13,879 nt of DNA from a candidate division WOR-3 bacterium. GTDB taxonomy: Bacteria; SDB-A. This document shows positions 98 through 13,764 of the stretch, piece by piece. Made by a program: the position numbers and the translations under genes. The notes under the pieces are model-generated. The model searched no databases and had not been told where the DNA came from. It saw only the letters and a program-made list of their open reading frames with translations. The number at the start of each line of letters is the position of its first letter. Within the stretch, counting starts at the first letter, position 1. Location of the stretch: NCBI GenBank assembly GCA_016934535.1, contig JAFGSQ010000052.1, positions 1 through 13,879 on the forward strand, read 5' to 3'.

Positions 98-1399
98 ATG
101 AAAAATTTTTTTATAGATTTCAACGGATGTCAGAGAAACCACATAGACGCCGAACTGATATCGGCGGCGTTGAAGAAAAATTCCTTTGACGAAGTTCACG
201 CTCCGGAGAGAGCGGATGTTTTGATTTTCCTTGGATGCGGATTTACTGAAGATGCAAGAAAAGAGAGCATAGAAACAATACTCGAGATGTATCTTGCAAA
301 AAAGAAAAAATCCGTTCTCGTCGTCGGAGGATGTATTTTCAGAAGACACAAGGCAGAATTAAAAAAAAATCTGCCTGAAGTCGATCTTTGGGTGGACGGC
401 TCCAACCCGGCTTTATTCCTAAAAACTCTTAAAAACACCGAGCAGACGGATGATTTTTCTCTGCCTGAACTCGATGGACCGAGAAACAGAATGGGATTGT
501 TTCATGTCGGGCTCGTAAAAATTTCCGAGGGCTGTCTCAACAACTGCTCGTATTGCGCAATACCGTTTATTAGAGGACCTTTAAGAAGCAGAGAAATAAA
601 GCATGTCACAGACGACGTCAAAAGACTCCAGGACGAGGGATGCACTGAAATTATACTCGTGTCGCAGGATTCGACGGCGTACGGGAAAGACAAAGCAGGT
701 AAAAGTCTTATGCCGAAACTTTTGGGTAAAATGGAAAAATGCGTATATCCCGGGGTGAAATACAGGATACCTTACCTTCATCCTAATGGAATTGACGACA
801 GACTGGCGGAAAAAATCGCTGGAACTGAAAAAATGATAAAATGCCTCGATATACCGGTTCAGCATTTTTCCGACAAACTGCTTAAAAAAATGAACAGAAA
901 TTCAACCGGCGCAGAACTCGTGGATCTGTTTTCGAAACTTCGTCAAAAAATTCCGGGGTCGGCCTTCAGGACCACTTTTATAGTCGGATTTCCAGGAGAG
1001 ACAGACCGAGACGTCGCGAAAATTATAACCGCTTCCAGGAAAATCGGTTTCGAAAGATCCGGTGTATTTATATACAGCCGGGAAGACAACACACAGGCAA
1101 AAAGTTTTCAAAATATACCCGCTAGAAAAACAGCCAGAAAAAGATATTTCGAAGTAAAAAAAAACCTGGACGTGGTAATGCTCGGCAAAGACAAAATGCG
1201 GGAAGGTCTTAAAATCCAGGCGATAATTGACGGTTACGCGGGTTCTTACGCCGTCGCGAGAACCGATTGGGACATGCCTGATGTCGACAAGGCGGTTTTC
1301 ATTAAAGACGAAAAAAGAGAGTTACAGAGCGGAATATGGACAAACATAAAAATCGTGAAAGCGACAAAAAATGCCTTATACGCGGTCAAAGCGGACTGA
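98..1399 (+). CDS. rimO: RimO: ribosomal protein S12 methylthiotransferase (radical SAM)
   Basis: Predicted to add a methylthio group to the conserved aspartate of ribosomal protein S12, using SAM and two [4Fe-4S] clusters in the cytoplasm. The 433 residues match the usual RimO length. The N-terminal UPF0004 domain carries the three auxiliary-cluster cysteines C11, C47 and C79; the context around C47 (GCGFTEDARKESIETI) is RimO-like rather than MiaB-like. The radical SAM CxxxCxxC motif is C146, C150, C153, followed by AIPFIRGPLRSR, also typical of RimO. The C-terminus is a TRAM-like domain with the RimO-style pattern around ARTDWDMPDVD. The start ATG has no convincing Shine-Dalgarno sequence; a -10-like TATAAA lies at 69-74 but without a matching -35. 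First gene of the run; it overlaps the next gene by 29 nt. Two A9 runs (361-369 and 1156-1164) lie within it. MiaB or MtaB identity is less likely. Confidence 0.9.
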   Translation: MKNFFIDFNGCQRNHIDAELISAALKKNSFDEVHAPERADVLIFLGCGFTEDARKESIETILEMYLAKKKKSVLVVGGCIFRRHKAELKKNLPEVDLWVDGSNPALFLKTLKNTEQTDDFSLPELDGPRNRMGLFHVGLVKISEGCLNNCSYCAIPFIRGPLRSREIKHVTDDVKRLQDEGCTEIILVSQDSTAYGKDKAGKSLMPKLLGKMEKCVYPGVKYRIPYLHPNGIDDRLAEKIAGTEKMIKCLDIPVQHFSDKLLKKMNRNSTGAELVDLFSKLRQKIPGSAFRTTFIVGFPGETDRDVAKIITASRKIGFERSGVFIYSREDNTQAKSFQNIPARKTARKRYFEVKKNLDVVMLGKDKMREGLKIQAIIDGYAGSYAVARTDWDMPDVDKAVFIKDEKRELQSGIWTNIKIVKATKNALYAVKAD

Positions 1400-2465
1400 A
1401 AAACTTTTTTTGTATCTTTTGGCGTCAATGTTTTTTGTCCTTAACTTCTGCGTTTCGTGCTCGAAAAATTCGAAAGAAATTTTTAGCAAGATAGATTCCA
1501 CAAATTATTTTGTATTGTTTTCGGATTCGATGGACGGTGAAATCACTTCGTGGGACGCGTCCGGAGATTCGGCTCTGATGATAGGGACTTCCACCGGAAG
1601 AATCGCGCTTTATTCACTGAAAAACGGCAAGATTCTCGACGATACTTTTTTCGACGGGTCCGTGTCTCAGATAAACTGCGTCAGTGAAGGGTGTGCCGTC
1701 CTTTTCAGCGACGCTTACGTCAGGCTTTTTGACGAAAATTGGTCCATGGTCAGGGAATTCAGGATTTCCAGAGGCAGATACATGCCTTCGGCGGAAGGCC
1801 CCGGAAAGATATTCTATCAGAAGCTTGACGGTGAGATATTTATATTCGACCACGAGGTCCTCTACGTTTCAGAAATAGACATAACACAAGCCAAGGGAGT
1901 CGGAATGAGAAGGCCTGTAAAAAACAGCGGAAAAATTCTGTTTCTGACGAGAAAAGCACTCTGGTGCCTCGATTCAAAAAGCGGAAATATTTTGTGGTTT
2001 TCTCCTTTCGAAGGTGCGGCAATTCCGGCTGATTTTGCCGTTTCTGACGACACGGTATTTGTCTCGTTTGACGACGGGACACTTCTCACCGTCGAAAGCT
2101 TCGACGGGAGAATACTGATGAGCCGTTCACTTTTCGAAGGTGAGGGGTTTGTCTTTGACGTCCAGTGCGAAGACATGTATTATATTGCAGAAAACGGTGA
2201 TATAGGTGTATATTTCAGGGGATCTGAAGAATTTCTCTGGAATCTCAGAACAGGCAATGTTTATTTGACCAAGCCTTTGACGGACAGCGAAAATGTCCTG
2301 TGCGTAAGTATATCAGGTCAATTTCTCGCCGTTGACAGGTGGACAGGAAGAGTGAATGAGGCTCTTATGCTGCCTTTGCAAAACGTGAAGTATTTTGAAA
2401 AATCGGGAGAAATTTTTATAGCCGCGGGAGGGAACGGTGTTTTTTGCGTCATCGGCAAAAAATGA
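1371..2465 (+). CDS. Putative lipoprotein with PQQ-like beta-propeller repeats (BamB-like fold), copy 1
   Basis: A 364-residue protein with a basic N-terminus (RSKRTEK), a hydrophobic stretch of about 20 residues and a possible lipidation cysteine at C30 in the context FCVSC. This lipobox is imperfect, with Cys at -3 instead of Leu. The mature part is beta-rich, with recurring strand-turn units of the quinoprotein/PQQ propeller kind: GRIALYSLKNGKIL (about 76-89), KALWCLDSKSGNILW (195-209), GTLLTVESFDGRILM (226-240) and GQFLAVDRWTGRVNE (316-330). No catalytic residues are recognisable. Such lipoproteins usually serve as envelope scaffolds, as BamB does in outer-membrane protein assembly, but a specific role is not shown. 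The chosen start gives a complete signal peptide and overlaps rimO by 29 nt; an in-frame ATG at 1428 would remove the basic region. Confidence 0.72.
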   Translation: MPYTRSKRTEKLFLYLLASMFFVLNFCVSCSKNSKEIFSKIDSTNYFVLFSDSMDGEITSWDASGDSALMIGTSTGRIALYSLKNGKILDDTFFDGSVSQINCVSEGCAVLFSDAYVRLFDENWSMVREFRISRGRYMPSAEGPGKIFYQKLDGEIFIFDHEVLYVSEIDITQAKGVGMRRPVKNSGKILFLTRKALWCLDSKSGNILWFSPFEGAAIPADFAVSDDTVFVSFDDGTLLTVESFDGRILMSRSLFEGEGFVFDVQCEDMYYIAENGDIGVYFRGSEEFLWNLRTGNVYLTKPLTDSENVLCVSISGQFLAVDRWTGRVNEALMLPLQNVKYFEKSGEIFIAAGGNGVFCVIGKK

Positions 2466-3555
2466 AAAGTGTTTGCATACAATCTTTTTTTTATTAACCG
2501 GTTTATTGGTTTTGTCATGCTCTTCGCTTCACGAAGCGAAATACGATTTTTCAATTTACGGCGGAAGCCGCGATCATTCTCCTTACAGAACAAAAGGCGT
2601 CGAAGAGTTCGGAAAAGAACTCTTTTTCGCCGTTCAGATAAGACCGGTCGGAGTTTTTATTCATGAAACCGGTTATGCTGTATTTGCATCAGACGGAGAA
2701 ATTTTATTTTTTGATCCCGCAGCGGGCACCTTGTCCGTAATTAAAGAGACCGGCCGATATTTTTCTTCGGTAATACAGTCCGGTCAATACTTTTTCGCGG
2801 TTTGCGAAGACAGCGTTCTGATCAAACTTGACGCCGGTTTTTCTTTGGTTTGGGAAGTATCACTTGAAGAAAAAATAATTTCCCTGCCCGTGCTAAATGG
2901 CGGCAATCTGATATTGATCACTGAAAACGGTGTGCGAGGTGTTTCCTCTTCGGACGGCTCTACCGAAGCCCGCGTCGAAGGGTTGAATTTCACGGGCTGC
3001 GGCAGAGTCTCTCCCCTTGTAAACGAAGGTAAAATGTACGTCCCTTCTGCCGGAGGAGAGATTTTATGTTTCGATCTCAAAAAATTCACGCTGTCCTGGA
3101 CTTATTTTACGGGAAGCTTTTTTCCAGTCAGATCGGTTCCTGTTATGACCGGATCGAGACCATCGGTTTTTGACTGCGCCGGAACATTCCACATCTTAAA
3201 TCCCTCGGACGGTTCTCTTTACGGAAAATTCAGATTGCTTCCTATCTCTTCTCCGTCTTTTGCCGCAGTTGACGGAGACGAAGTAGTAGTTTCTAGCCTT
3301 TTCGGAGACAAAATCGTTTTTTCATATTCTCTGAAGAATAGTGAGATGAACTGGATCAAAAAAGGATTTTTCGGACAGCCTTTCATTTTCAAAGACGCCC
3401 TTGTCGTGGCTTCCGACAGTTCATTAACTGTACTCGACAAAAACGGAAATGTTATCGAGAGCTATACTGAAAATTCAGGAGTAACCAGTTATTTCATACA
3501 TCCGCAAGCCTTTTTCATGTTTTCGGATGAAGGATTGAGAATTATATCAAAGTGA
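2437..3555 (+). CDS. Putative lipoprotein with PQQ-like beta-propeller repeats (BamB-like fold), copy 2
   Basis: A 372-residue protein starting at a GTG preceded by a strong purine-rich site (GGGAGGGA, 2427-2434). It overlaps the preceding gene by 29 nt. The N-terminus has a hydrophobic segment (about 14-26) and a lipobox VLSC with the lipidation cysteine at C28. The mature protein begins with YDFSIYGGSRDHSPY, which resembles the opening motif of PQQ/BamB-like propellers (a W/F..GG....H/R pattern). Repeat units follow, such as DGEILFFDPAAGTLSV, GGEILCFDLKKFTLSW and AGTFHILNPSDGSLYG. It is probably an exported, membrane-anchored paralogue of its upstream neighbour; the two resemble each other in length, signal type and repeats. 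The function is unknown; envelope assembly or a structural role is an inference from the fold. Confidence 0.74.
   Translation: MFFASSAKNEKCLHTIFFLLTGLLVLSCSSLHEAKYDFSIYGGSRDHSPYRTKGVEEFGKELFFAVQIRPVGVFIHETGYAVFASDGEILFFDPAAGTLSVIKETGRYFSSVIQSGQYFFAVCEDSVLIKLDAGFSLVWEVSLEEKIISLPVLNGGNLILITENGVRGVSSSDGSTEARVEGLNFTGCGRVSPLVNEGKMYVPSAGGEILCFDLKKFTLSWTYFTGSFFPVRSVPVMTGSRPSVFDCAGTFHILNPSDGSLYGKFRLLPISSPSFAAVDGDEVVVSSLFGDKIVFSYSLKNSEMNWIKKGFFGQPFIFKDALVVASDSSLTVLDKNGNVIESYTENSGVTSYFIHPQAFFMFSDEGLRIISK
2523..2540. repeat. Short inverted repeat just after the lipobox codons of the second lipoprotein
   Basis: A perfect 7-bp inverted repeat, TTCGCTT (2523-2529) and AAGCGAA (2534-2540), with a 4-nt CACG loop. 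It lies inside the coding region directly after the lipobox cysteine codon. It contains the 10-mer CTTCACGAAG (2527-2536), which recurs in reverse complement in the hairpin at 13860-13874. It could fold in mRNA; no function is shown. Confidence 0.5.
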
Positions 3556-3562
3556 GGAAAAT

Positions 3563-4060
3563 ATGCCCCAAGTTTTTCTGAGCGACCGAGCCGTGGTTGA
3601 AGGAGACGTGAGGCTTGGACAAAACGCCAACATCTGGCACTGCGCGGTTTTGAGAGCCGACATAAATCACATCGAAGTAGGCGAGAACACCAACATTCAG
3701 GACGGATGCATTGTTCACGTAACGCACGTACTTCCGGCTGTAATAGGAAAAAATGTAACAGTGGGACACGGCGCCATAGTACACGGGTGCAGGATTGAAG
3801 ACAACGTGTTGATCGGCATGGGGGCCGTAATACTGGACGGTGCCGTGGTCGGAAAAAATTCCGTCGTAGCGGCCGGTGCAGTCGTGCTCGAGAATCAGAA
3901 AATCGAAGAGAATTCGCTTGCGGCCGGAATACCCGCGAAAATTAAAAGGGCTGTATGCCAGGAAGAGGTGCTAAAGATTTCCGAATCCGCCGCTGAATAT
4001 GTTAAACTTGCACAAAAAAAATTAAAAGAGACGAATTTCGACAGGAGGATTGATGATTAA
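3563..4060 (+). CDS. Gamma-class carbonic anhydrase-like protein (left-handed beta-helix, YrdA/CaiE family)
   Basis: A 165-residue hexapeptide-repeat protein, normal for the YrdA/PaaY/gamma-carbonic anhydrase family, expected to trimerise with metal sites between subunits. The putative metal-binding histidines are H52 (DGCIVHV), H69 and H74 (VGHGAIVHGC). R31, D33 (LRADINHIEVG), Q46 and D47 correspond to residues conserved in the archaeal enzyme Cam, so the site looks intact. Many family members have no measured carbonic anhydrase activity, so the reaction CO2 + H2O to bicarbonate remains a prediction. The acidic loop with the proton-shuttle glutamate of Cam is not evident, as in other short bacterial members. 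The start ATG follows GAGGA by 4 nt. The gene lies 7 nt after the lipoprotein gene and overlaps korA by 8 nt, so it is probably translated with the CO2-handling KOR enzyme. Confidence 0.85.
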   Translation: MPQVFLSDRAVVEGDVRLGQNANIWHCAVLRADINHIEVGENTNIQDGCIVHVTHVLPAVIGKNVTVGHGAIVHGCRIEDNVLIGMGAVILDGAVVGKNSVVAAGAVVLENQKIEENSLAAGIPAKIKRAVCQEEVLKISESAAEYVKLAQKKLKETNFDRRIDD

Positions 4061-5177
4061 AAAAATGATGCACGGCAACGAAGCCTGCGCGTATGGAGCC
4101 ATAATAGCCGGCTGCAGATTTTTTGCCGGTTATCCGATTACGCCATCGAGTGAGATCGCCGAAGAAATGGCGGTCATGCTTCCTCAAGTCGGAGGAAAGT
4201 TCATACAGATGGAGGACGAGATAGCTTCGATGGCCGCAATTATCGGTGCGAGCCTCAACGGAATAAAATCCTTGACCGCGACATCCGGACCGGGTTTCAG
4301 CCTCAAACAGGAGAACATCGGTTACGCGTGTCACGCCGAAATCCCGTGCGTTATAGTCAACGTTCAGAGAGGGGGCCCTTCGACGGGCAGTCCGACGATG
4401 CCTTCACAGGAAGATTTCATGCAGAGCAGGTGGGGAACTCACGGGGATCATTTCATAGTCGTGCTTTCTCCGAGCAGTGTTCAGGAAACTTTCGAACTGA
4501 CAATCAAATCGTTCAACATTTCCGAAAAATACAGAACGCCCGTGATTCTTTTGATGGACGAGATAGTCGGGCACATGACTGAAAAAATGATATTACCGGA
4601 ACCTGGAGAGGCGGAAATAATAGAAAGAAAAAAACCCGGCGTGGAACCCGAAAACTTCAAACCGTACGAGACCACTGATGACGGAGTTCCGCCCATGGCG
4701 GCATTCGGAAGCGGTTACAGACATCATGTCACGGGACTGATGCACGACGACACGGGTTTTCCCACAAACGACAACGCCAAAATAAAAGCGCTTAAAGACA
4801 GATGGAAAAAGAAATTTGACATGGCGCGTGATTCTATTGTGATGACGGAGCTGATAGATGCCGAGGACGCCGAGTATCTCGTTTTTTCGTACGGCAGTTC
4901 GGCCAGGTGTGCGAGGAAGGCCGTAAAAATGGCGCGTGAGAAAGGTGTCAAAATCGGACTTATGAAAGCTTTGACACTATGGCCGTTTCCCGACAAAGAG
5001 CTGGCGAAAGCCTCGGAGAAGCTTAAGGGAATAATCGTCGCCGAAATGAACATGGGTCAGGCGATACGCGAAGTGGAACGTGCAATACCGAAAAACGTCA
5101 AAGTTCTTGGTGCAAACAGGTACGACGGCGAATCGATGCACCCCAACGATATTCTAAACGTTATAGAAAAATTTTAA
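4053..5177 (+). CDS. korA: 2-oxoacid:ferredoxin oxidoreductase alpha subunit, probably 2-oxoglutarate-specific (KorA)
   Basis: Catalytic alpha subunit of the TPP-dependent enzyme that interconverts 2-oxoglutarate + CoA and succinyl-CoA + CO2 with reduction or oxidation of ferredoxin. The N-terminal domain has the hallmark YPITPSSE (27-34), then TSGPGFSLKQENIGYA and RGGPSTGSPT...Q.D....HGDH, all typical of the alpha family. The segment around DGVPPMAAFGSGYRHH and the C-terminal transketolase-like domain are also present. The length of 374 residues fits KorA of the four-subunit type. The ATG at 4053 is preferred because AGGAGG (4043-4048) is 4 nt upstream; a TTG at 4050 would be too close to that site. 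The substrate could instead be a branched-chain 2-oxoacid (VOR), because family motifs alone do not settle specificity. Confidence 0.88.
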   Translation: MIKKMMHGNEACAYGAIIAGCRFFAGYPITPSSEIAEEMAVMLPQVGGKFIQMEDEIASMAAIIGASLNGIKSLTATSGPGFSLKQENIGYACHAEIPCVIVNVQRGGPSTGSPTMPSQEDFMQSRWGTHGDHFIVVLSPSSVQETFELTIKSFNISEKYRTPVILLMDEIVGHMTEKMILPEPGEAEIIERKKPGVEPENFKPYETTDDGVPPMAAFGSGYRHHVTGLMHDDTGFPTNDNAKIKALKDRWKKKFDMARDSIVMTELIDAEDAEYLVFSYGSSARCARKAVKMAREKGVKIGLMKALTLWPFPDKELAKASEKLKGIIVAEMNMGQAIREVERAIPKNVKVLGANRYDGESMHPNDILNVIEKF

Positions 5178-5190
5178 AAGGGGACAAGGA

Positions 5191-5745
5191 ATGTCTTTTC
5201 GTTACGAAATCAGATTGAGCGGCGCAGGCGGGCAGGGTTTGATATTGATAGGAAAAATCCTCGCCGAAGCCGCGGCTATATTCGCAGACCTGAACGCGAC
5301 CCAGAGCCAGTCATACGGACCTGAATCCCGAGGCGGAGCCAGCAGGAGCGAAGTAATAATATCGGATGAAGACATAGATTATCCGAAAGCCGGACAGGTG
5401 GATTTTCTGCTGGCGATGACACAGGAAGCTTTTGACAAATACTCGGGAATGACGAAAAACGGCGGCGTTATTGTCTACGACAAGGAACTCGTTCACTCGC
5501 CCAAAGAAGTCGAAGGAGTAAGAGTGTATCCTTCCGACATAACAAGCATCGCGGTCAGAGACCTTAAAAAACCTATCGTCGCGAACATGGTCGCCCTCGG
5601 GATAGTCGTGAATCTTTCGAACATACTTCCCGTTGAAACAGTAAAAGAAGCTATAAAGTCGAGGGTTCCGAGAGGAACCGAGGACATCAATCTTCAGGCT
5701 TATGAACTTGGTTACGAAAAAGGGAAAGAGCTTCAGGGGCTTTAA
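5191..5745 (+). CDS. korC: 2-oxoacid:ferredoxin oxidoreductase gamma subunit (KorC)
   Basis: A 184-residue gamma subunit of the same KOR complex. It starts with the family's glycine-rich motif SGAGGQG (10-16), followed by QSYGPESRGGASRSEVI at about 40-56, a very characteristic segment of the POR/KOR gamma domain. In structurally known relatives the gamma domain packs against the alpha/beta core and helps in CoA handling. The gene starts 13 nt after korA. AGGGGA (5179-5184) can serve as ribosome binding site, with AAGGA immediately before the ATG. An 8-nt gap separates it from the large GlnE-like gene, so the KOR genes are not contiguous. Confidence 0.9.
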   Translation: MSFRYEIRLSGAGGQGLILIGKILAEAAAIFADLNATQSQSYGPESRGGASRSEVIISDEDIDYPKAGQVDFLLAMTQEAFDKYSGMTKNGGVIVYDKELVHSPKEVEGVRVYPSDITSIAVRDLKKPIVANMVALGIVVNLSNILPVETVKEAIKSRVPRGTEDINLQAYELGYEKGKELQGL

Positions 5746-5753
5746 GGCCATTC

Positions 5754-8717
5754 TTGAAAAGCGCCGAACTTAAACTTCTGACGCCTCTTCAGAGGAATTT
5801 GGAGGAGATTTCCGGATGGGGCAACCACATGCGGAAATACGCTTTTTTCATTGAAAGCAACTACGAATCTCTGATGGAAGAGCTGGCACGGAAAAATTTG
5901 TCCGACGAAATTCACCTTTCTCACAGCCTTCCGGATTTCGACAAACAGATATCGAGAGAGATGGCCGTAATAGCCGGACTCGAAATAGAATGCGCGGACA
6001 AAGTGAAGCATCTGGGGACTTATTATGCAATAAAACTTGTCCAGCTCAACGTCACTACTATAGATTTCATAAGACCCGCGGTCATCAAGTCGGATCCTCT
6101 GAAAGCATACGAGAATTTCATGCGCGAAATCGGATGGAAATTCAGATCCCTGACGTCAATATTTCTCGAGAATCTGATACCAATCCTTTCAGCAGACCTT
6201 AGAATCCCGCCATTTATAATAGCGAGTGTAGGCACAAGAACAGACATGGACGACATAGATGCCGCCGTAATAACCGTTGACAGCGACACAAAAGATCTCG
6301 ACAAACTGCTGAGCCGAGTCAACAAAGTGATGACCAAGTACGGAACCACGATGCATTTTCATCTGGCTGAAAGCATAGACAATGGCAAATACAGCGCGAC
6401 TGTAGCGGAATTCATCGGTTTTGCCGTTCAAAATGTTTCAAATTTTGTCTTCATAACCGAAATAATCGGCGCGAAGAGAATTTATGGGCCGCATAACCTG
6501 ATGGAAGAATTTGAAGAAGAGGTATTTCAGCTTTTTTATCCGGAATATTCTCCCGACGTCAGGTATCACGAAGCGTATCTCAGGATGATTTTGGGCGAGA
6601 TAAGAATTTATCTCAACAGAAAGATTGAATCGGAATACATAAATCCGAAAAACGACGCTCTGAGAATGATAAAAGCGCTGATAACAGTTCAAAAGACAAG
6701 ATACGGTATATATAAAAAAAATCCATGGGCAGTGCTCGATAAACTTAAATATTTTGATTCAAAGAACTGGGACATCTACAAAGCCATTGGAGAAAGTCTG
6801 GCTTTTGTCGAAACTCTGAGGTTTTTGTTCATGCTCTATGGAACACAGGAAGAACTGATCCAGCTCGATGTTCCTGAAAACGTGAACACGCTTAAGCAGA
6901 TAGCAGGGATAATGGGGATTGACTCCATCGGTGCTGTGTCTAGCTTAGAACACCTCCTTATAAGATATTACGACCATTTGAGGCGAGTCAAGAAAATCGT
7001 AGAATTCATGCTCGATGACTGCCGGGAATACCTGAAAAGGATAACTCTCATAAATGAGGTCCTCACGGAAAACAAGGGTAACCTCGCCGTCAATTTCGCG
7101 AAAAATTCTGACATTTTCAAGGGTTCCGATTTCTGGGACGACATACTCGAAGCCTTCTCACTGGACGATTTCAGGCTTTTGCGGGTATTCGCGAGAGATT
7201 ATCTCTCTCTTGATCCTAGGTTAAGGAAAGTCATCCTCAAAGGACTTTTTTCGCGCATCGAGTACACTTTTGACGGTCTCGTATCATTCATCGTCATGTT
7301 AGGAACTCAAAAAAACTACAAAGAGATGTTGCCGGTCAGGGATGAGTTTCTTTTGTACCTGACAAACAGCTTTCAAAACACACCGGATCTTCTTTTTTCA
7401 CTCGTCGGATTTTTCGAAAAAAACAATATAGGGCTCTGCCTTCTTCTCGAAAGTATTGACAGAGAAACTCTTCTAAAAATAAAAGAAACCTTCGCCAATC
7501 TCAGGGAAGATTCCTCTGAAAAGAAATCTAAAAAATCAAAAAACTACAATTTCAAGAATGTTCTCAACATTTACGCTGAAGGCAGCCGCTATTTCAGAAA
7601 ATATTTCCAAAAAATCCTTCTTTCCGACCCATGGATAGTAAAACTGATAGAATCCGAGGAAAAAATCGAAGACATATGCTCGGGAATATTTGCCGAGATA
7701 TCGAGAACTGTCAACAGACAGACTCAAAAGTCGCTTTTGACGCGATTTTACAATCTGAAATTCTTGAACATCGGCCTCGAAGCAATAGGAGGTAAATCTT
7801 ACGACGGGATTTCAAAGGATTTTATTGAGCTTAACAACGATTATCTGGTCACGCTTTTCGACGTGTGTTTTCTGGAATTGGAAGAGCAGAAATCTTTGAG
7901 GTTAAAAGGGGAAGACCTTTTTTTGTTTTTTATAGTGGGCAGTCTCGCCCGAGAAAGTTCATTCAACGATGACATAGACATACTCGTCATTATGGACACG
8001 GAAGAGACCGACCTATTTACTTCATACAATAAAATTCTTTCGAGAATGAGCAGAGAAATAGTAAAGACAGGCACCATTCCGCAGTTCAGACTGGCCGATC
8101 ATTTCGGCACATACGTGACTAAAATGAGCGATTTAAAGTCATTTTTCCAAAAAAACACATCTGACACTTTCATCGAAAAATCCCAGATCCTCGAGTCAAA
8201 ATTAATTACCGGCTCTGAAATGTTTTTGGAAAAATTCAAAAGCGAGCTGATAGAAGAAGAAATTTTCACCAAATGGGACATTTTCGCTAAAAAAATGCTC
8301 GATGAAATAACAGGCAGACACGAAAACAATTCCGATTTCATATACAATGTCAAAGAAAGCCCCGGTGGAATAAAAGACATCGAGATGATTTTTCTAATAT
8401 TGAAAGCCAAATACGGAGTAGTCTTCAAATACGGGGAAGAACTGGTCCAGGAGCTGGCGGAAAGAATGCCGGCAACATCGGATCTCGTCGCTAGAGCCGC
8501 CCTTTATCTCAAGCAATTGAGGGAAATAAGACAATTCATGAGATTAACAGTATCAAAAACGAATGTAATAGATACGACCGAACTTTCCAGAAATTTTAAA
8601 TCTTCTGTGATTCCATACAACGGCAGAAATTCTTCCGATTTTGAAGAATATTACCGCAGATTGATGTCAAATTCGAGAGAGAATCTCGAGAAATTAATAG
8701 GTCTCGTTTTTATATAG
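5754..8717 (+). CDS. GlnE-like tandem nucleotidyltransferase, divergent
   Basis: A 987-residue protein with the two-half plan of glutamine synthetase adenylyltransferase/deadenylase (GlnE, usually about 950 residues). The C-terminal half has GS(x8)DDID at 729-742, the DNA polymerase beta-type nucleotidyltransferase motif. A GlnE-style region follows (FIEKSQILESKLITGSEMFL, about 806-825), then NVKESPGGIKDIE (865-877), matching the K.GPGG.RDIE signature shared by GlnE and GlnD. Residues 608-700 resemble the GlnE helical segment ahead of the transferase domain (SRYF...LL.DP...L...., then RFYNLKFLNIGLEAI). The N-terminal half has a shorter motif, GTRTDMDDID (160-169), and a helical region with LR and GID motifs (350-420). 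GlnE's VDLRLRP region reads PQFRLADHF (776-784), so the usual third Asp appears as Gln777. The start is TTG with a weak AAGG site; an ATG at codon 26 is an alternative. It lies inside the kor operon. Activity and target are unknown. Confidence 0.72.
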   Translation: MKSAELKLLTPLQRNLEEISGWGNHMRKYAFFIESNYESLMEELARKNLSDEIHLSHSLPDFDKQISREMAVIAGLEIECADKVKHLGTYYAIKLVQLNVTTIDFIRPAVIKSDPLKAYENFMREIGWKFRSLTSIFLENLIPILSADLRIPPFIIASVGTRTDMDDIDAAVITVDSDTKDLDKLLSRVNKVMTKYGTTMHFHLAESIDNGKYSATVAEFIGFAVQNVSNFVFITEIIGAKRIYGPHNLMEEFEEEVFQLFYPEYSPDVRYHEAYLRMILGEIRIYLNRKIESEYINPKNDALRMIKALITVQKTRYGIYKKNPWAVLDKLKYFDSKNWDIYKAIGESLAFVETLRFLFMLYGTQEELIQLDVPENVNTLKQIAGIMGIDSIGAVSSLEHLLIRYYDHLRRVKKIVEFMLDDCREYLKRITLINEVLTENKGNLAVNFAKNSDIFKGSDFWDDILEAFSLDDFRLLRVFARDYLSLDPRLRKVILKGLFSRIEYTFDGLVSFIVMLGTQKNYKEMLPVRDEFLLYLTNSFQNTPDLLFSLVGFFEKNNIGLCLLLESIDRETLLKIKETFANLREDSSEKKSKKSKNYNFKNVLNIYAEGSRYFRKYFQKILLSDPWIVKLIESEEKIEDICSGIFAEISRTVNRQTQKSLLTRFYNLKFLNIGLEAIGGKSYDGISKDFIELNNDYLVTLFDVCFLELEEQKSLRLKGEDLFLFFIVGSLARESSFNDDIDILVIMDTEETDLFTSYNKILSRMSREIVKTGTIPQFRLADHFGTYVTKMSDLKSFFQKNTSDTFIEKSQILESKLITGSEMFLEKFKSELIEEEIFTKWDIFAKKMLDEITGRHENNSDFIYNVKESPGGIKDIEMIFLILKAKYGVVFKYGEELVQELAERMPATSDLVARAALYLKQLREIRQFMRLTVSKTNVIDTTELSRNFKSSVIPYNGRNSSDFEEYYRRLMSNSRENLEKLIGLVFI

Positions 8718-8728
8718 GAGGTCAAGTT

Positions 8729-8944
8729 TTGCAGACAAAAAAATTTAAGATCACGGTTGACGAAAAGCTTTGCAAGGGATGCGAAAACTGCGTCACTCAG
8801 TGTCCCAAAAAAGTTCTCGAACTCAACTTGTTGCAGAAAGCTTTCGGCGCAAGACAAAACGACTGCATAGGATGTCTCAGGTGCGAGTATGTCTGTCCTG
8901 ATTTCGCGATAACTGTAACCGAAATTGAAGGAGACTCAAAATGA
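8729..8944 (+). CDS. korD: KOR delta subunit, 2[4Fe-4S] ferredoxin (KorD)
   Basis: A 71-residue ferredoxin with two complete CxxCxxCxxxCP motifs: C15, C18, C21, C25 and C46, C49, C52, C56. Each can ligate a [4Fe-4S] cluster in the usual cross-over pattern. As the delta subunit it would pass electrons between the TPP/cluster site of KorB and soluble ferredoxin. The start codon is TTG, well supported by AGGAGG (8716-8721) with a 7-nt spacer; this ribosome binding site overlaps the TAG stop of the preceding gene. Its own stop overlaps the korB start as ATGA, indicating translational coupling. Confidence 0.9.
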   Translation: MQTKKFKITVDEKLCKGCENCVTQCPKKVLELNLLQKAFGARQNDCIGCLRCEYVCPDFAITVTEIEGDSK

Positions 8945-9807
8945 AAACCGAAATAGTCCTGTCCTATCTCAGAAGGAACAAGCTGCCTCACATCTGGTGC
9001 CCCGGATGCGGCCACGGCATCATCCTGGGTTCTCTCATAAGAGCCATACACAAGACAGGTTGGAAAAAAGACGACATAGCTCTCGTCTCCGGGATAGGCT
9101 GTTCGAGCAGAACTCCAGGATACGTCGACTTTAATACTCTTCACACCACTCACGGAAGATCACTCGCTTTCGCTGCCGGCATTAAATTTTCCAATCCGAA
9201 ACTCAATGTCATATCAGTGATGGGGGACGGCGACGCTGTAGCGATCGGCGGTAATCATTTCATCCACGCCGCGAGAAGAAACCTTAACATCACTGCCCTG
9301 GTGTTCAATAATTACATTTACGGAATGACCGGAGGCCAGTTTTCTCCCACGACTCCCCAAAAAGCCATAGCTTCGACGACTCCTTACGGCAACATTGACG
9401 GTAATTTCGACATTACGGCTCTGGCGACAGGCGCGGGAGCAGGTTTTGTCGCAAGAAGCACCGCGGTGCACGTTCCGGCCCTTGACGACATAATTTTCAA
9501 AGCGCTGACATACGACGGATTCGCTGTCGTCGAGATATTGAGCTTTTGCCACGTTCAATTCGGAAAAAGGAACAAGTTGAAAACATCTTTCAGCATGATA
9601 GACTGGCTGAAAGGTATGACATTACCCTTTACTGCCTACGAAAAACTCGACCCGGAGGCAAGAAAAGACAAAATACCGGTTGGCATTTTCAAGAATGAAC
9701 CGACTGAAGAATATTCAAAAAAATATGAAAAACTTATCGTTGAGCCAAATCAGTCGAAAAACAGTATTTTAAAGGAATATTGCAAAGCAAAGCTTTATGA
9801 TTTATGA
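8941..9807 (+). CDS. korB: 2-oxoacid:ferredoxin oxidoreductase beta subunit, TPP-binding (KorB)
   Basis: A 288-residue beta subunit that binds thiamine diphosphate and one [4Fe-4S] cluster. The TPP motif runs from MGDGDA (94-99) to FNN (122-124), and HGR (71-73) is also family-typical. The cluster cysteines are probably C20 and C23 (WCPGCGHG), C54 (GIGCSSR) and C203 (SFCHVQFGKRNK). The length and these motifs match KorB rather than the longer PorB. The ATG is part of an ATGA overlap with korD. The gene order here is A-C-[GlnE-like]-D-B, so the beta subunit that must pair with KorA is encoded about 3.8 kb downstream of it. The stop overlaps the next gene by 11 nt. Confidence 0.92.
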   Translation: MKTEIVLSYLRRNKLPHIWCPGCGHGIILGSLIRAIHKTGWKKDDIALVSGIGCSSRTPGYVDFNTLHTTHGRSLAFAAGIKFSNPKLNVISVMGDGDAVAIGGNHFIHAARRNLNITALVFNNYIYGMTGGQFSPTTPQKAIASTTPYGNIDGNFDITALATGAGAGFVARSTAVHVPALDDIIFKALTYDGFAVVEILSFCHVQFGKRNKLKTSFSMIDWLKGMTLPFTAYEKLDPEARKDKIPVGIFKNEPTEEYSKKYEKLIVEPNQSKNSILKEYCKAKLYDL

Positions 9808-10735
9808 TATTTCTTTAAAAACTGTACTTGTTACAGGCGCTGATGGTTTCGTCGGAGGAATGGTTGCGTCAAAATTATCCCGCGACAAACGCTTTAAAAC
9901 AGTCGGAACTTCGCTTTCTGAAGTCTGTGATGAAAAAAAAGAGTTCGATCTTGTCACGATAGATATTACGGATTTCAAAGATGTCAGGAAACTCATCGAA
10001 GAAACCAGACCGGACATTGTCTATCATTTCGCCGCCCAATCTAGCGCAGGATATTCTTTTAGCGACGCTTCGACGACGTTTAAAGTCAATTTTGAAGGTA
10101 CTATTAATTTTCTTGAGACCATGAGGGAAACCGACATAAAATTCATTTACGTATCATCTTCAGAAGTATACGGCGACACGGGAGGAAGAAAAGCGACTGA
10201 AAACGATCTGGTCGCGCCTCTCAGCCCGTATGGAGCGAGCAAGGCCGCGGCTGAAATAGCTGTTTTGCAGTATTCGCGGTCATTCAACATGAATTGCTCG
10301 GTGATCAGACCTTTTCCCCAAGTCGGAAAGGGCCAGAACGGCAGGTTTTTTATCCCGTCAATGGCCAAACAAATAATGGACATTAAAAAAGGCATTCTGG
10401 CGCCAGAGATTAAAACAGGCAATCTAGGACCTGTAAGGACATACATAAGCGTTGAAGACGCAGTAGTTTTTTATCTGGCGATGATAGATAAAGCCCAAAA
10501 GGGAGAGATATACAACCTGGCGGGCAGACAAGACATCAGCCTTCTTCAAATACTTAACATGATGAAAGATATTGCGGGAGTGGAAGCCGAAATAGTTCAA
10601 AGCGACGATTTGCTGAGGGCTTCTGATCCGGAGTTCCAGCTCGGTTCACCGGAAAAAATAGAAAAGACGACGGGCTATACACCAAAAAGAAAAATAGAAG
10701 ATGAGATAAGGGAAATACTGGATAATTACAGATGA
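9797..10735 (+). CDS. NAD(P)-dependent sugar epimerase/dehydratase, resembling GDP-4-keto-6-deoxymannose reductase (Rmd)
   Basis: An extended short-chain dehydrogenase of 312 residues. The Rossmann motif is TGADGFVG (13-20, GxxGxxG). The catalytic elements are Ser at about 121-122 (VSSSEVYG) and Y145xxxK149 (SPYGASKAA). The pattern RPFPQVGKGQNGRFFIPSMAKQ and GNLGPVRTYISVEDAV resembles the GDP-mannose 4,6-dehydratase/Rmd branch (RPFN..GPGQ.., GNL...RDF.DV.D). This suggests it makes or modifies a GDP-linked deoxy sugar such as a rhamnose. The exact substrate cannot be read from the sequence; UDP- or dTDP-sugar enzymes are alternatives. The start overlaps korB by 11 nt with no strong ribosome binding site, so translation is probably coupled. 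It opens the glycan cassette; its stop overlaps the GT4 start as ATGA. Confidence 0.8.
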   Translation: MIYDISLKTVLVTGADGFVGGMVASKLSRDKRFKTVGTSLSEVCDEKKEFDLVTIDITDFKDVRKLIEETRPDIVYHFAAQSSAGYSFSDASTTFKVNFEGTINFLETMRETDIKFIYVSSSEVYGDTGGRKATENDLVAPLSPYGASKAAAEIAVLQYSRSFNMNCSVIRPFPQVGKGQNGRFFIPSMAKQIMDIKKGILAPEIKTGNLGPVRTYISVEDAVVFYLAMIDKAQKGEIYNLAGRQDISLLQILNMMKDIAGVEAEIVQSDDLLRASDPEFQLGSPEKIEKTTGYTPKRKIEDEIREILDNYR

Positions 10736-11832
10736 AAATACTTCTTATAAATTGGGGAGACAGAAAAAATCCTTACGGCGGAGGCGCAGAGATACATCTC
10801 GAGGAAATTTTCTCAAGAATAGCACGATCGGGCAATGAAATATATCTTTTGTGTTCAGCATTCGAAGGTTCAAAAAAAGAAGAAGTGATTGACGACATAA
10901 ACATCATTAGGACAGGAAGAAGAGCCACTTTCAATTTTGACGCCAGGAACTTCTACTTAAAAAAATTGTCGAATGAAAAATTTGATCTCCTCGTCGAGGA
11001 TATTAACAAACTCCCGTTTTATTCACCTCTGTGGTCAAAAGTGCCGGTCCTGCCGGTTGTGCCTCATCTGTTCGGCACAACGGTTTTCAGGGAAGCTTCC
11101 GTTCCCCTCGCTTTCTACGTATATCTCTGGGAAAAAGGTCTTTTAAAAGTTTACGGAAAACTCGACATCGAAGTCATATCCGAATCCACAAAAGAAGATC
11201 TCGTCAGGCGCGGATTTGACGGAAACAGGGTGCACGTCATCCACTGCGGAATAGATCATAATGTATACAATCCCGGAGGAAGTAAAAGCGCGACACCTCT
11301 CATAGTCTACGTCGGGAGAATAAAAAAATACAAAAGAGTAGATCTTCCCATCAAAGCCGTAAGTATATTGAAAAAAGATTTTCCTGACATAAAACTCGTC
11401 ATAGTCGGAGAAGGAGACGCTTCGGCGGAACTTAAAAAACTGGCGTCGAAATTGTTGAGACCCGAAGATTACGAATTCACGGGCTTCGTGACCATGGAGG
11501 AAAAGATTTCCTGGATGAGGAAGTCTCACGTAGTCATGAACACTTCTGAAAAAGAGGGTTGGGGACTTACCGGCGTGGAAGCCAATGCGTGCGGCACGGC
11601 TGTCGTCGCGTCCGACTCGCCGGGCATAAGGGATTCAATAATTGACAATTACTCGGGGATTCTCGTAAAACACGGCGACTGCAATGCGCTGGCCGACGCG
11701 GCCGCGTCTTTTCTTAATAACGAAAAATTAAGAAAAACAACAGAAAAAAACGCACTCGAAAGGGTCAAAGAACTCACGTGGGAAAACGCCGCAGAAAAAA
11801 CATCGAAGTTAATTGAAAGAATTTTGACGTGA
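10732..11832 (+). CDS. Glycosyltransferase family 4 (GT-B fold)
   Basis: A 366-residue retaining-type glycosyltransferase of the GT4/WcaA-PimA kind. The N-terminal acceptor domain has the glycine-rich GGGAE (16-20) found in many GT4 enzymes. The C-terminal donor domain starts near VYVGRIKKYKR (192-202) and contains the EGWGLTGVE motif with E275 and E283 (E-x7-E), which binds the nucleotide-sugar donor. No membrane segments are evident, so it probably works at the inner face of the cytoplasmic membrane. The neighbouring Rmd-like reductase suggests a GDP-deoxyhexose donor, but this is inference. It is coupled upstream by ATGA and downstream by GTGA overlaps. Confidence 0.87.
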   Translation: MKILLINWGDRKNPYGGGAEIHLEEIFSRIARSGNEIYLLCSAFEGSKKEEVIDDINIIRTGRRATFNFDARNFYLKKLSNEKFDLLVEDINKLPFYSPLWSKVPVLPVVPHLFGTTVFREASVPLAFYVYLWEKGLLKVYGKLDIEVISESTKEDLVRRGFDGNRVHVIHCGIDHNVYNPGGSKSATPLIVYVGRIKKYKRVDLPIKAVSILKKDFPDIKLVIVGEGDASAELKKLASKLLRPEDYEFTGFVTMEEKISWMRKSHVVMNTSEKEGWGLTGVEANACGTAVVASDSPGIRDSIIDNYSGILVKHGDCNALADAAASFLNNEKLRKTTEKNALERVKELTWENAAEKTSKLIERILT

Positions 11833-12848
11833 AAAAGAAAATAAAAAATCTCGCATTTTTCGCGCTTAAAATGATAATTTCTTCAGCTATCCTTTTTGTC
11901 GTTTTTTTTAAAGTCCAGAAAGATCAAGGCGCGTTGTGGGCTGAATCACACGGCGGGGAAAACCTCTGGCTCGGAATGATCGGTCTCGTCCTGTCGAGCA
12001 ATCCTTTTTTAGTTGCGGCGGCGGTTCTTTCGAACATTGCGGGTATAATGCAGTCCGTTATCAGATGGCACGTTCTTTTGACGTCTCACGGCAATAAAAT
12101 AAAATATTTCACGACAGTAAAAATCCAGTTCATCGGATATCTTTACAACAACATCCTTCCGGCTTCCATAGGCATGGACGCTATAAGAGGAGCCTACGCC
12201 TATTCGATAACAAAAAAGAAAGGCGAGGTTCTCAGTTCTCTTTTAGCGGACCGGTTTTTCGGACTGATAGGCATGATCCTCCTCGGAATAATCTGTTTTC
12301 CGTTTTACTTCAATGTCCATCTTGCTTTCCTTATATTTGCCGTAGAAGTCGGTGTTTTGGTTTGCATGGCGGCTTTTCTTATCCTTTTTTCAAACGACAG
12401 ATTTTTCGCTTTCATAACCGGATATTTCAAAAAGCTCCACATTTTCAAAATAGGATCGAGATTTGTCACGCTATACGAAGCTTTCAAAAATTACACAGAC
12501 AAACCTACAACAGCAGCCAAAGCAATATTCTTTTCGATGCTTCTTCAGCTTTTTCTGACTTTTAACATGTTCTTTCTGGCAAAGGCCTTGAATCTCACCG
12601 GTGTTTCTTTCGGATCTCTACTCGGCTATCTTCCTTTTATAAACATAGTTTCGATGATACCGACACCGGGGGGACTGGGTCCGAGAGAGGCGTCCGTTGT
12701 GCTCCTGCTCGGAAACGCCGGCTGTTCGTCTGCGGAAGCTCTTACGCTTTCTCTTTTTTATTACACAGTCTCACTGGCCGTCAGTCTCAGCGGTCTCGTC
12801 TTTTTGCCTATGATGAAGTTCGGCAAAGGAGGAATGGATGAAGTTTGA
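11829..12848 (+). CDS. UPF0104 / lysylphosphatidylglycerol synthase TM-domain family membrane protein
   Basis: A 339-residue polytopic inner-membrane protein with a lysine-rich N-terminus and probably seven to eight hydrophobic segments. Family landmarks are YLYNNILPASIGMDAIRG (104-120), a DRFFG motif (131-135) and PTPGGLGPREAS (278-289), typical of the LPG_synthase_TM (UPF0104/AglD-like) family. Relatives include the flippase half of MprF and proteins found in glycolipid or glycan loci. Flippase or lipid-handling activity is likely, but not established for stand-alone members. There is no MprF aminoacyl-transfer domain. The start is GTG within a GTGA overlap with the GT4 gene. The last 11 nt overlap the GT2 gene, whose ribosome binding site lies inside this gene. 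Confidence 0.85.
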   Translation: MKKKIKNLAFFALKMIISSAILFVVFFKVQKDQGALWAESHGGENLWLGMIGLVLSSNPFLVAAAVLSNIAGIMQSVIRWHVLLTSHGNKIKYFTTVKIQFIGYLYNNILPASIGMDAIRGAYAYSITKKKGEVLSSLLADRFFGLIGMILLGIICFPFYFNVHLAFLIFAVEVGVLVCMAAFLILFSNDRFFAFITGYFKKLHIFKIGSRFVTLYEAFKNYTDKPTTAAKAIFFSMLLQLFLTFNMFFLAKALNLTGVSFGSLLGYLPFINIVSMIPTPGGLGPREASVVLLLGNAGCSSAEALTLSLFYYTVSLAVSLSGLVFLPMMKFGKGGMDEV

Positions 12849-13764
12849 TTACACGGTGATAATACCCGCCTGCAACGAAGAAGAAAATATGAATGAACTT
12901 TTTGCGAATCTCACTGCTCTCGAAAAAAAAAGCGAAATAAAATTTGAAGCCGTTATAGTAGACGACGGCAGTACTGACAACACTCCGGCTCTCGCCGACG
13001 AATTGGCTCAAGGAAAAGAATGGATAAAAGTAATACATCATCCGAGGAGACTCGGCATAACAAAGGCGCTCGAGGCGGGTCAGGAAGCCGCGGGGTCTGA
13101 CGTTTTCGTTTTTTTTCCAGCGGATCTTCAGTTCGACGTCGAAGACATTCCGAGAATGGCTGAGCCCGTGGTAAAAGGAATTTACGACATAGTCACCGGG
13201 GCAAAAATAGGAAAATACGAAAAGAAATTCGTATCGGGCATATACAACACGCTGGGCAAAATGCTGTTCAAAATACCGGTTAAAGACATGAATTCAGTCA
13301 AAGCCTACAACCGCAAATCAGTCCTTTCCATACCTTTGAGAAAGGAATGGCACAGGTACATAGTTATTCTCGCCCACGAATCGGGAGCAAAAATAGGAGA
13401 AATTGAAGTAAAACTCTATCCGAGAAAAAGCGGGAAATCTAAATTCACACCACTTAGAATACCCGTGGGACTTCTCGACCTTTTGGGTGTTTTTTCTGAA
13501 GTCAGGATAATGAAAAAACCGATGCTCGTCTTCGGTACGATGGGAATAATCTCGATGGCTTCAGGAGCCGTCGTCGCTTTAACCGCCCTTGTCCTGAGGA
13601 TTTTATCTCACGGCTACAGACCTCTTCTTTACCTCGTTATATTGCTTGTCCTCGGAGGTTTTTTGTCATTCATGCTTGGAATAGTCGGAGAAAAGCTAGC
13701 CGGTATTTCGAAGAGGCAGGAAATGATTCTCAAAAAGCTCGACCGGATCAGCAGAAAAGACTGA
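12838..13764 (+). CDS. GT2 polyprenyl-phosphate glycosyltransferase (DPM/GtrB-like) with two C-terminal membrane segments
   Basis: A 308-residue family 2 glycosyltransferase. The N-terminal GT-A domain has VIIPACNEEENM (7-18) and the nucleotide-binding VDDGSTDNTP (41-50). The metal-site region reads FFPADLQFD (92-100), so the first Asp of the usual DAD is Pro94 while D96 and Q98 remain. The C-terminus has two hydrophobic segments (about 233-257 and 262-285) ending in a basic/coiled tail. This arrangement is typical of enzymes that load a sugar onto undecaprenyl or dolichyl phosphate at the membrane. The ATG has an excellent AGGAGG (12827-12832) 5 nt upstream. Last gene of the run; next to a UPF0104 protein, it probably supplies a lipid-linked sugar for the same glycan pathway. 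Confidence 0.85.
   Translation: MKFDYTVIIPACNEEENMNELFANLTALEKKSEIKFEAVIVDDGSTDNTPALADELAQGKEWIKVIHHPRRLGITKALEAGQEAAGSDVFVFFPADLQFDVEDIPRMAEPVVKGIYDIVTGAKIGKYEKKFVSGIYNTLGKMLFKIPVKDMNSVKAYNRKSVLSIPLRKEWHRYIVILAHESGAKIGEIEVKLYPRKSGKSKFTPLRIPVGLLDLLGVFSEVRIMKKPMLVFGTMGIISMASGAVVALTALVLRILSHGYRPLLYLVILLVLGGFLSFMLGIVGEKLAGISKRQEMILKKLDRISRKD

Follow-up and report, generated by a model that had tools for sequence, protein, structure and literature searches.

A tandem nucleotidyltransferase of an apparent third GlnD/GlnE-related lineage encoded within a 2-oxoglutarate:ferredoxin oxidoreductase operon

The window analysed is a stretch of 13,879 nucleotides of contig JAFGSQ010000052.1 (assembly GCA_016934535.1), from a candidate division WOR-3 bacterium. 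It carries the genes of a 2-oxoglutarate:ferredoxin oxidoreductase (KOR) and, in the midst of them, a gene for a 987-residue protein related to GlnD and GlnE, here called X. The five genes run korA-korC-X-korD-korB, all on the + strand (Table 1). Gaps of 13 nt (korA/korC), 8 nt (korC/X) and 11 nt (X/korD) separate them, and korD and korB overlap by 4 nt; the order, strand and spacing given in a first-pass annotation of this DNA were confirmed by the coordinates. TTG start codons were found for X and korD, that of X being common to two congeners. All four KorABCD-type subunits are encoded, with substrate specificity taken from family naming only (Pfam, NCBIfam). KorA scored 571 bits against NCBIfam PRK08659 (cut-off 411), and the nearest solved relative of KorC was 3on3 (174 bits). 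X is present as a single copy in the host genome (2.23 Mb, 76 contigs, completeness score 100%), and a 76% identical relative came from a metagenome-assembled genome of candidate division WOR-3.

Table 1. Positions in the window of the kor operon genes and of the parts of X.
Feature	Position	Strand	Basis
korA, 2-oxoglutarate:ferredoxin oxidoreductase alpha subunit	4050..5177 (start TTG 4050 or ATG 4053)	+	POR_N, PFOR_II
korC, gamma subunit	5191..5745	+	PF01558 POR 2.7e-37; PRK08537
X, 987-aa tandem nucleotidyltransferase, probable third GlnD/GlnE-related lineage	5754..8717	+	PF08335; homologous halves; own clade
X half 1, residues 115-425	6096..7028	+	Aligned to half 2; conserved acids
X middle region, about residues 430-640	7041..7673	+	Helical in low-confidence model
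X half 2, residues 685-955	7806..8618	+	P 99.3 to GlnD N-terminal part
korD, delta subunit, 4Fe-4S ferredoxin type	8729..8944	+	Fer4; NCBIfam OorD-like
korB, beta subunit, thiamine diphosphate binding	8941..9807	+	PF02775 3e-32; PRK09628 336 bits

PF08335 (GlnD_UR_UTase) matched residues 845-927 of X (2.7e-10, 40.9 bits, cut-off 21) and was matched by all eight X family members tested. The NCBIfam GlnD models gave weak matches, which were the best obtained, and the N-terminal half had no Pfam match in a single-sequence scan. Profile comparison drew on 65 homologues, all of full or almost full length. Half 1 (residues 1-440) was aligned to half 2 (640-987) by hhalign with P 99.9 over 317 columns, upholding the earlier description of X as a tandem nucleotidyltransferase; each half holds a polymerase-beta-type nucleotidyltransferase site followed by a GlnD/GlnE-type helical region. 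Half 2 gave P 99.3 against the N-terminal part of GlnD, 98.8 against the N half of GlnE and 98.4 against its C half, for half 1 alone the values were 85 (GlnD) and 80 (N half of GlnE), and full X was collinear with full-length GlnE (P 99.0). The middle region of X served as negative control and scored no higher than 0.2; no Pfam family matched it, nor did GlnE or GlnD in profile comparison. The Pfam nucleotidyltransferase models of the superfamily matched single X members weakly (E 0.0025-0.0068). A phmmer search of the PDB with X alone returned no match, and the X family profile gave weak matches to GlnE (1v4a, 0.0018; 3k7d, 0.13).

The hG[GS]..DxD motif and the third acid of the polymerase-beta-type superfamily are present in X. 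Half 1 contains VGTRTDMDDID (159-169), third acid E206 and PKxDxLR (298-304); half 2 contains G729-S..DDIDI (739-743), third acid D782 and KESPGGIKDIE (867-877). The roles given to E206 and D782 are probable ones, judged from position and conservation. Across the family the motifs read VGTR.DQDDID, H..H..E206, HE..LR...GE and PK.D.LR in half 1, and GG.AR....DDD.D, PHYRF.[DE]782 and KE..GG[LI]RDIE in half 2. D167/D169 were kept in 64 of the 65 homologues, as was E206, while D740/D742, K867 and D875 were kept in all 65 and D/E782 in 61. All six putative catalytic acids were retained in 59/65; the exceptions were one truncated sequence, one E206Q substitution (second copy of G237) and four sequences without an acid at 782 only. 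Sequence profiles support the assignment of X as a nucleotidyltransferase. The second X copy of G237 (L112) adjoins a gene for an HdrA-MvhD-like protein, and its Gln at position 206 hints at the loss of one activity.

A tree was built from the nucleotidyltransferase-plus-helical segments of X, GlnE and GlnD. Three clades resulted: the halves of X grouped together (99/93), as did those of GlnE (100/99) and the GlnD sequences (100/99), and X half 1 and X half 2 were each monophyletic. The evidence that X is neither GlnE nor GlnD but a third lineage is strong but not final, as alignment is difficult at such distance; the tandem duplication of X looks independent of that of GlnE, since the halves of each form a clade of their own. 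The label 'GlnE-like' in the first-pass annotation therefore holds for the architecture but not for the tree, in which X does not group with GlnE. GlnE has about 950 aa in two nucleotidyltransferase-plus-helical halves, aligns collinearly with X and has the K..GG(I/L)RDIE motif in common with it; one half of GlnE attaches the nucleotide and the other removes it. X differs in the short DQDDID loop of half 1, in the unmatched middle region and in its genomic link to kor rather than glnA, and no member of the X family reached the cut-off of the NCBIfam GlnE model, some giving trace scores. The N-terminal nucleotidyltransferase part of GlnD is closest to X half 2, but X has a second nucleotidyltransferase half instead, shows no HD or ACT domains in a Pfam scan, and comes from a genome in which PII is absent. 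The likeness to DUF294 (PF03445) was confined to a short DQD-type motif and was not significant (one member, E 0.21); unlike DUF294 proteins, X had no visible CBS or cNMP-binding domain. Antitoxins of the MntA type (MNT) are nucleotidyltransferase-fold enzymes that AMPylate a partner encoded next door, and they offer a precedent for partner nucleotidylation, but they are members of toxin-antitoxin pairs and have no link to metabolism (PMC7641770).

Genes of kor were located within 6 kb of X for 41 of the 65 homologues, or 42 with G474, whose korB lies on the opposite strand and ends about 1.8 kb away from X. These loci belong to at least five phyla (assigned by the sequence collection's own grouping) and differ in gene order; chance adjacency of X and kor was put at roughly 0.3-0.8% per genome. 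The kor link suggested by the first-pass annotation consequently extends beyond close relatives of the window's genome, and the homologues are not scattered independently of kor. The korC-X-korD synteny raised in that annotation is kept in the window's phylum, where the order korA-korC-X-korD-korB is complete in G002 and G003 and is seen in G001 with korD uncalled by the open reading frame picker; in other phyla X follows korC, in the order (korD)-korA-korB-korC-X (phyla of G056, G009 and G047, plus G004 and G263). Among the loci away from kor, 11 adjoin sdh genes or the gene for phosphoenolpyruvate carboxykinase (PEPCK) and four an HdrA-MvhD-like gene; at one of the 11, the two fumarase subunits are encoded next to X as well. 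Other neighbours of X include sucC, sucD, ndk, acetate kinase (ackA), a malic enzyme-PTA fusion and a dicarboxylate symporter.

Nucleoside diphosphate kinase (ndk) was frequent near X (L104, L105, L106, L108-L111, L116, L119 and L163), either directly downstream of it or downstream of a GTP cyclohydrolase gene, folE2, that adjoins X. It is ascribed to a sucCD-kor-ndk cluster and not to X, because ndk follows korC where X has moved or is absent. In two distant genomes (L013:11481-12233, - strand; L166:3834-4670, - strand) a protein of 251-279 aa is encoded between the kor genes and X. It had no Pfam match (L013 copy scanned) and carries a VVGAMSL...WDLDLLF stretch suggestive of another small nucleotidyltransferase.

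Full-length X was present in all four genomes of the window's phylum, in three of four of the G009 phylum, in the single genome of the G004 phylum, in 30/82 of the G047 phylum (a few of them fragments) and in about 21/120 of the G056 phylum, in which the weaker matches were mostly canonical GlnE or GlnD. A broad genome sample contained X in 21/386, and no relative of X was found in a scan of viral contigs or in plasmids. Five divergent relatives (L168, L169, L170, L171 and L172; 797-1011 aa) have no kor or tricarboxylic acid (TCA) cycle neighbours. Much of the middle region is apparently missing from the two shortest (797 and 887 aa); one of the five adjoins an asparaginase/GatD-like gene, and two have neighbours of similar sizes and order.

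An orthologue of KorA (at least 56% identity) was found in 17/17 X-carrying genomes tested, including eight with X away from kor, and in 5/35 genomes without X (at least 53% identity). Fisher's test gave p = 1.2e-9 by genome and 2.2e-5 by family, neither value being fully corrected for phylogeny. In family f95, KorA was present in three genomes with X and absent from two without it.

The first-pass annotation named glutamine synthetase or PII as the output of GlnE and GlnD in nitrogen control and suggested that X could couple carbon flux to nitrogen assimilation, a coupling that stays conjectural. On one reading X would be a divergent GlnE or GlnD doing its usual job and placed with kor through the shared 2-oxoglutarate signal, for which it can be said that GlnD and GlnE are its closest characterised relatives and that one glnA is present in the window's genome. 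That account is now very improbable, the least probable of those considered. PII (PF00543) was absent from all four genomes of the window's phylum (G000-G003), whereas the same search matched 13 of 14 control genomes. No other PF08335 protein, and so no further GlnD or GlnE, was found in the window's genome and three relatives; neither the glnB nor the second canonical glnE that had been proposed as a check was found in the window's genome. The glutamine synthetases of G000 and G001 have Phe at the position of the adenylylated Tyr398 of E. coli (KNLFELPP against KNLYDLPP). PII and glutamine synthetase were accordingly rejected as targets of X in this genome, and a role as the usual nitrogen regulator is unlikely there given the missing PII, the missing further GlnD/GlnE and the Phe. 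X also falls outside the GlnE and GlnD clades and lacks HD and ACT domains, and genomes such as G009, in which the Tyr of glutamine synthetase is kept, hold canonical GlnE, GlnD and PII alongside X.

We tentatively prefer, with confidence a little short of even, the reading that X is a stand-alone regulatory nucleotidyltransferase of a third lineage, devoted to the ferredoxin-linked TCA-cycle branch and nucleotidylating KOR or a partner of it. From homology, conserved active sites, linkage, co-occurrence and the missing usual targets, we infer catalysis, substrate, reversibility and signal. The link to kor could instead reflect operon hitchhiking from a single ancestor with no functional meaning, as the one gene order in most kor-linked members of one phylum would allow; this is scarcely probable, because the order varies by phylum (korA-korC-X-korD-korB against korD-korA-korB-korC-X), in the window's phylum X has kor genes on both sides, and X co-occurs with KOR even when it has moved away. 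That X binds nucleotide as a metabolite sensor or scaffold and regulates KOR by binding, without transfer, is improbable but less so. The unusually short motif loop of half 1 and the loss of one third acid from several homologues are in its favour, but DxD is kept in half 2 of 65/65 and in half 1 of all but one truncated sequence, and retention of the three acids in both halves of 59/65 is expected of an active enzyme. Rather unlikely, though the strongest competitor, is a different target: X would nucleotidylate a common regulator or another central-carbon protein (for example succinate dehydrogenase, PEPCK, fumarase or succinyl-CoA synthetase), and its proximity to kor would mark no more than a shared pathway. 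One clade of X lies divergently beside sdhABCD, PEPCK and fumarase, and another beside HdrA-MvhD, which is in its favour; against it, a KOR orthologue was present in 8/8 tested genomes with X away from kor, and KOR is the sole neighbour enzyme common to at least five phyla.

Under the preferred reading, with X acting on KOR or a partner, KOR would be the parsimonious substrate, being the operon partner of X. The earlier suggestion that X modifies a KOR subunit stands as the best-supported reading, with the substrate presumed. By analogy with GlnE, the two halves of X would work in opposite directions, one modifying a side chain of KOR, or of a protein bound to KOR, with a nucleotide (probably AMP or UMP) and the other taking it off again. 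Metabolite sensing would fall to the middle region or the helical bundles, with 2-oxoglutarate, glutamine, succinyl-CoA or an adenylate ratio as candidate signals. KOR activity would be set post-translationally and, with it, the supply or consumption of 2-oxoglutarate, so that X would adjust the ferredoxin-linked interconversion of 2-oxoglutarate and succinyl-CoA. Where X lies beside succinate dehydrogenase, fumarase or PEPCK, the target may be extended to those enzymes or may be the same, since the genomes tested there still carry KOR. The fuller proposal, that in several uncultured phyla a dedicated tandem enzyme, evolved in parallel with GlnE, reversibly nucleotidylates KOR as a core TCA-cycle oxidoreductase and directly sets 2-oxoglutarate flux in cells lacking PII, GlnD and GlnE, is possible but somewhat more doubtful.

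Several points weigh against this interpretation. About a third of the homologues are not beside kor, and G282, G421, G558, G297 and G309 (divergent) have no visible central-carbon neighbours. The loop between GT and DID in half 1 is shortened, so the activity of this half could be altered. AlphaFold models of half 1 and full X, made from two-sequence alignments only, had predicted local distance difference test scores of 31 and 34, too low for use, and profile likeness to GlnE and GlnD is no proof of protein modification. KorC Tyr84 and nearby residues did not vary among 42 X-carrying genomes, and most KorC from X-less genomes differed there; as an X-specific signature this region was dropped, the outside KorC 3on3 sharing the DKY stretch.

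To our knowledge, the known cases of bacterial metabolic regulation by protein nucleotidylation come mostly from nitrogen control, with PII and glutamine synthetase. A literature search, covering open-access papers only, found no system that joins a nucleotidyltransferase to 2-oxoglutarate:ferredoxin oxidoreductase. As far as could be checked in that literature, the class of chemistry is known, but neither the lineage nor its independent duplication nor the kor association is described. If the preferred reading is true, nucleotidylation control would reach, through this third, KOR-linked lineage, into central carbon and ferredoxin metabolism, and there would be a hint of how bacteria that lack PII keep 2-oxoglutarate in balance; X and KOR would form a testable enzyme-substrate pair encoded by one operon.

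Directly 3' of korB, and overlapping it by 11 nt, lies a polysaccharide-type gene run (9797-13764) in the order sugar epimerase/dehydratase (Pfam), glycosyltransferase, flippase-like membrane protein and second glycosyltransferase, the glycosyltransferases and the flippase-like protein being putative assignments from sequence alone. Two neighbouring putative lipoproteins of the BamB-like (PQQ-repeat) type are encoded at 1371-3555, flanked by a RimO-like methylthiotransferase and a gamma carbonic anhydrase; the order of the pair is kept in relatives despite 21-54% identity.

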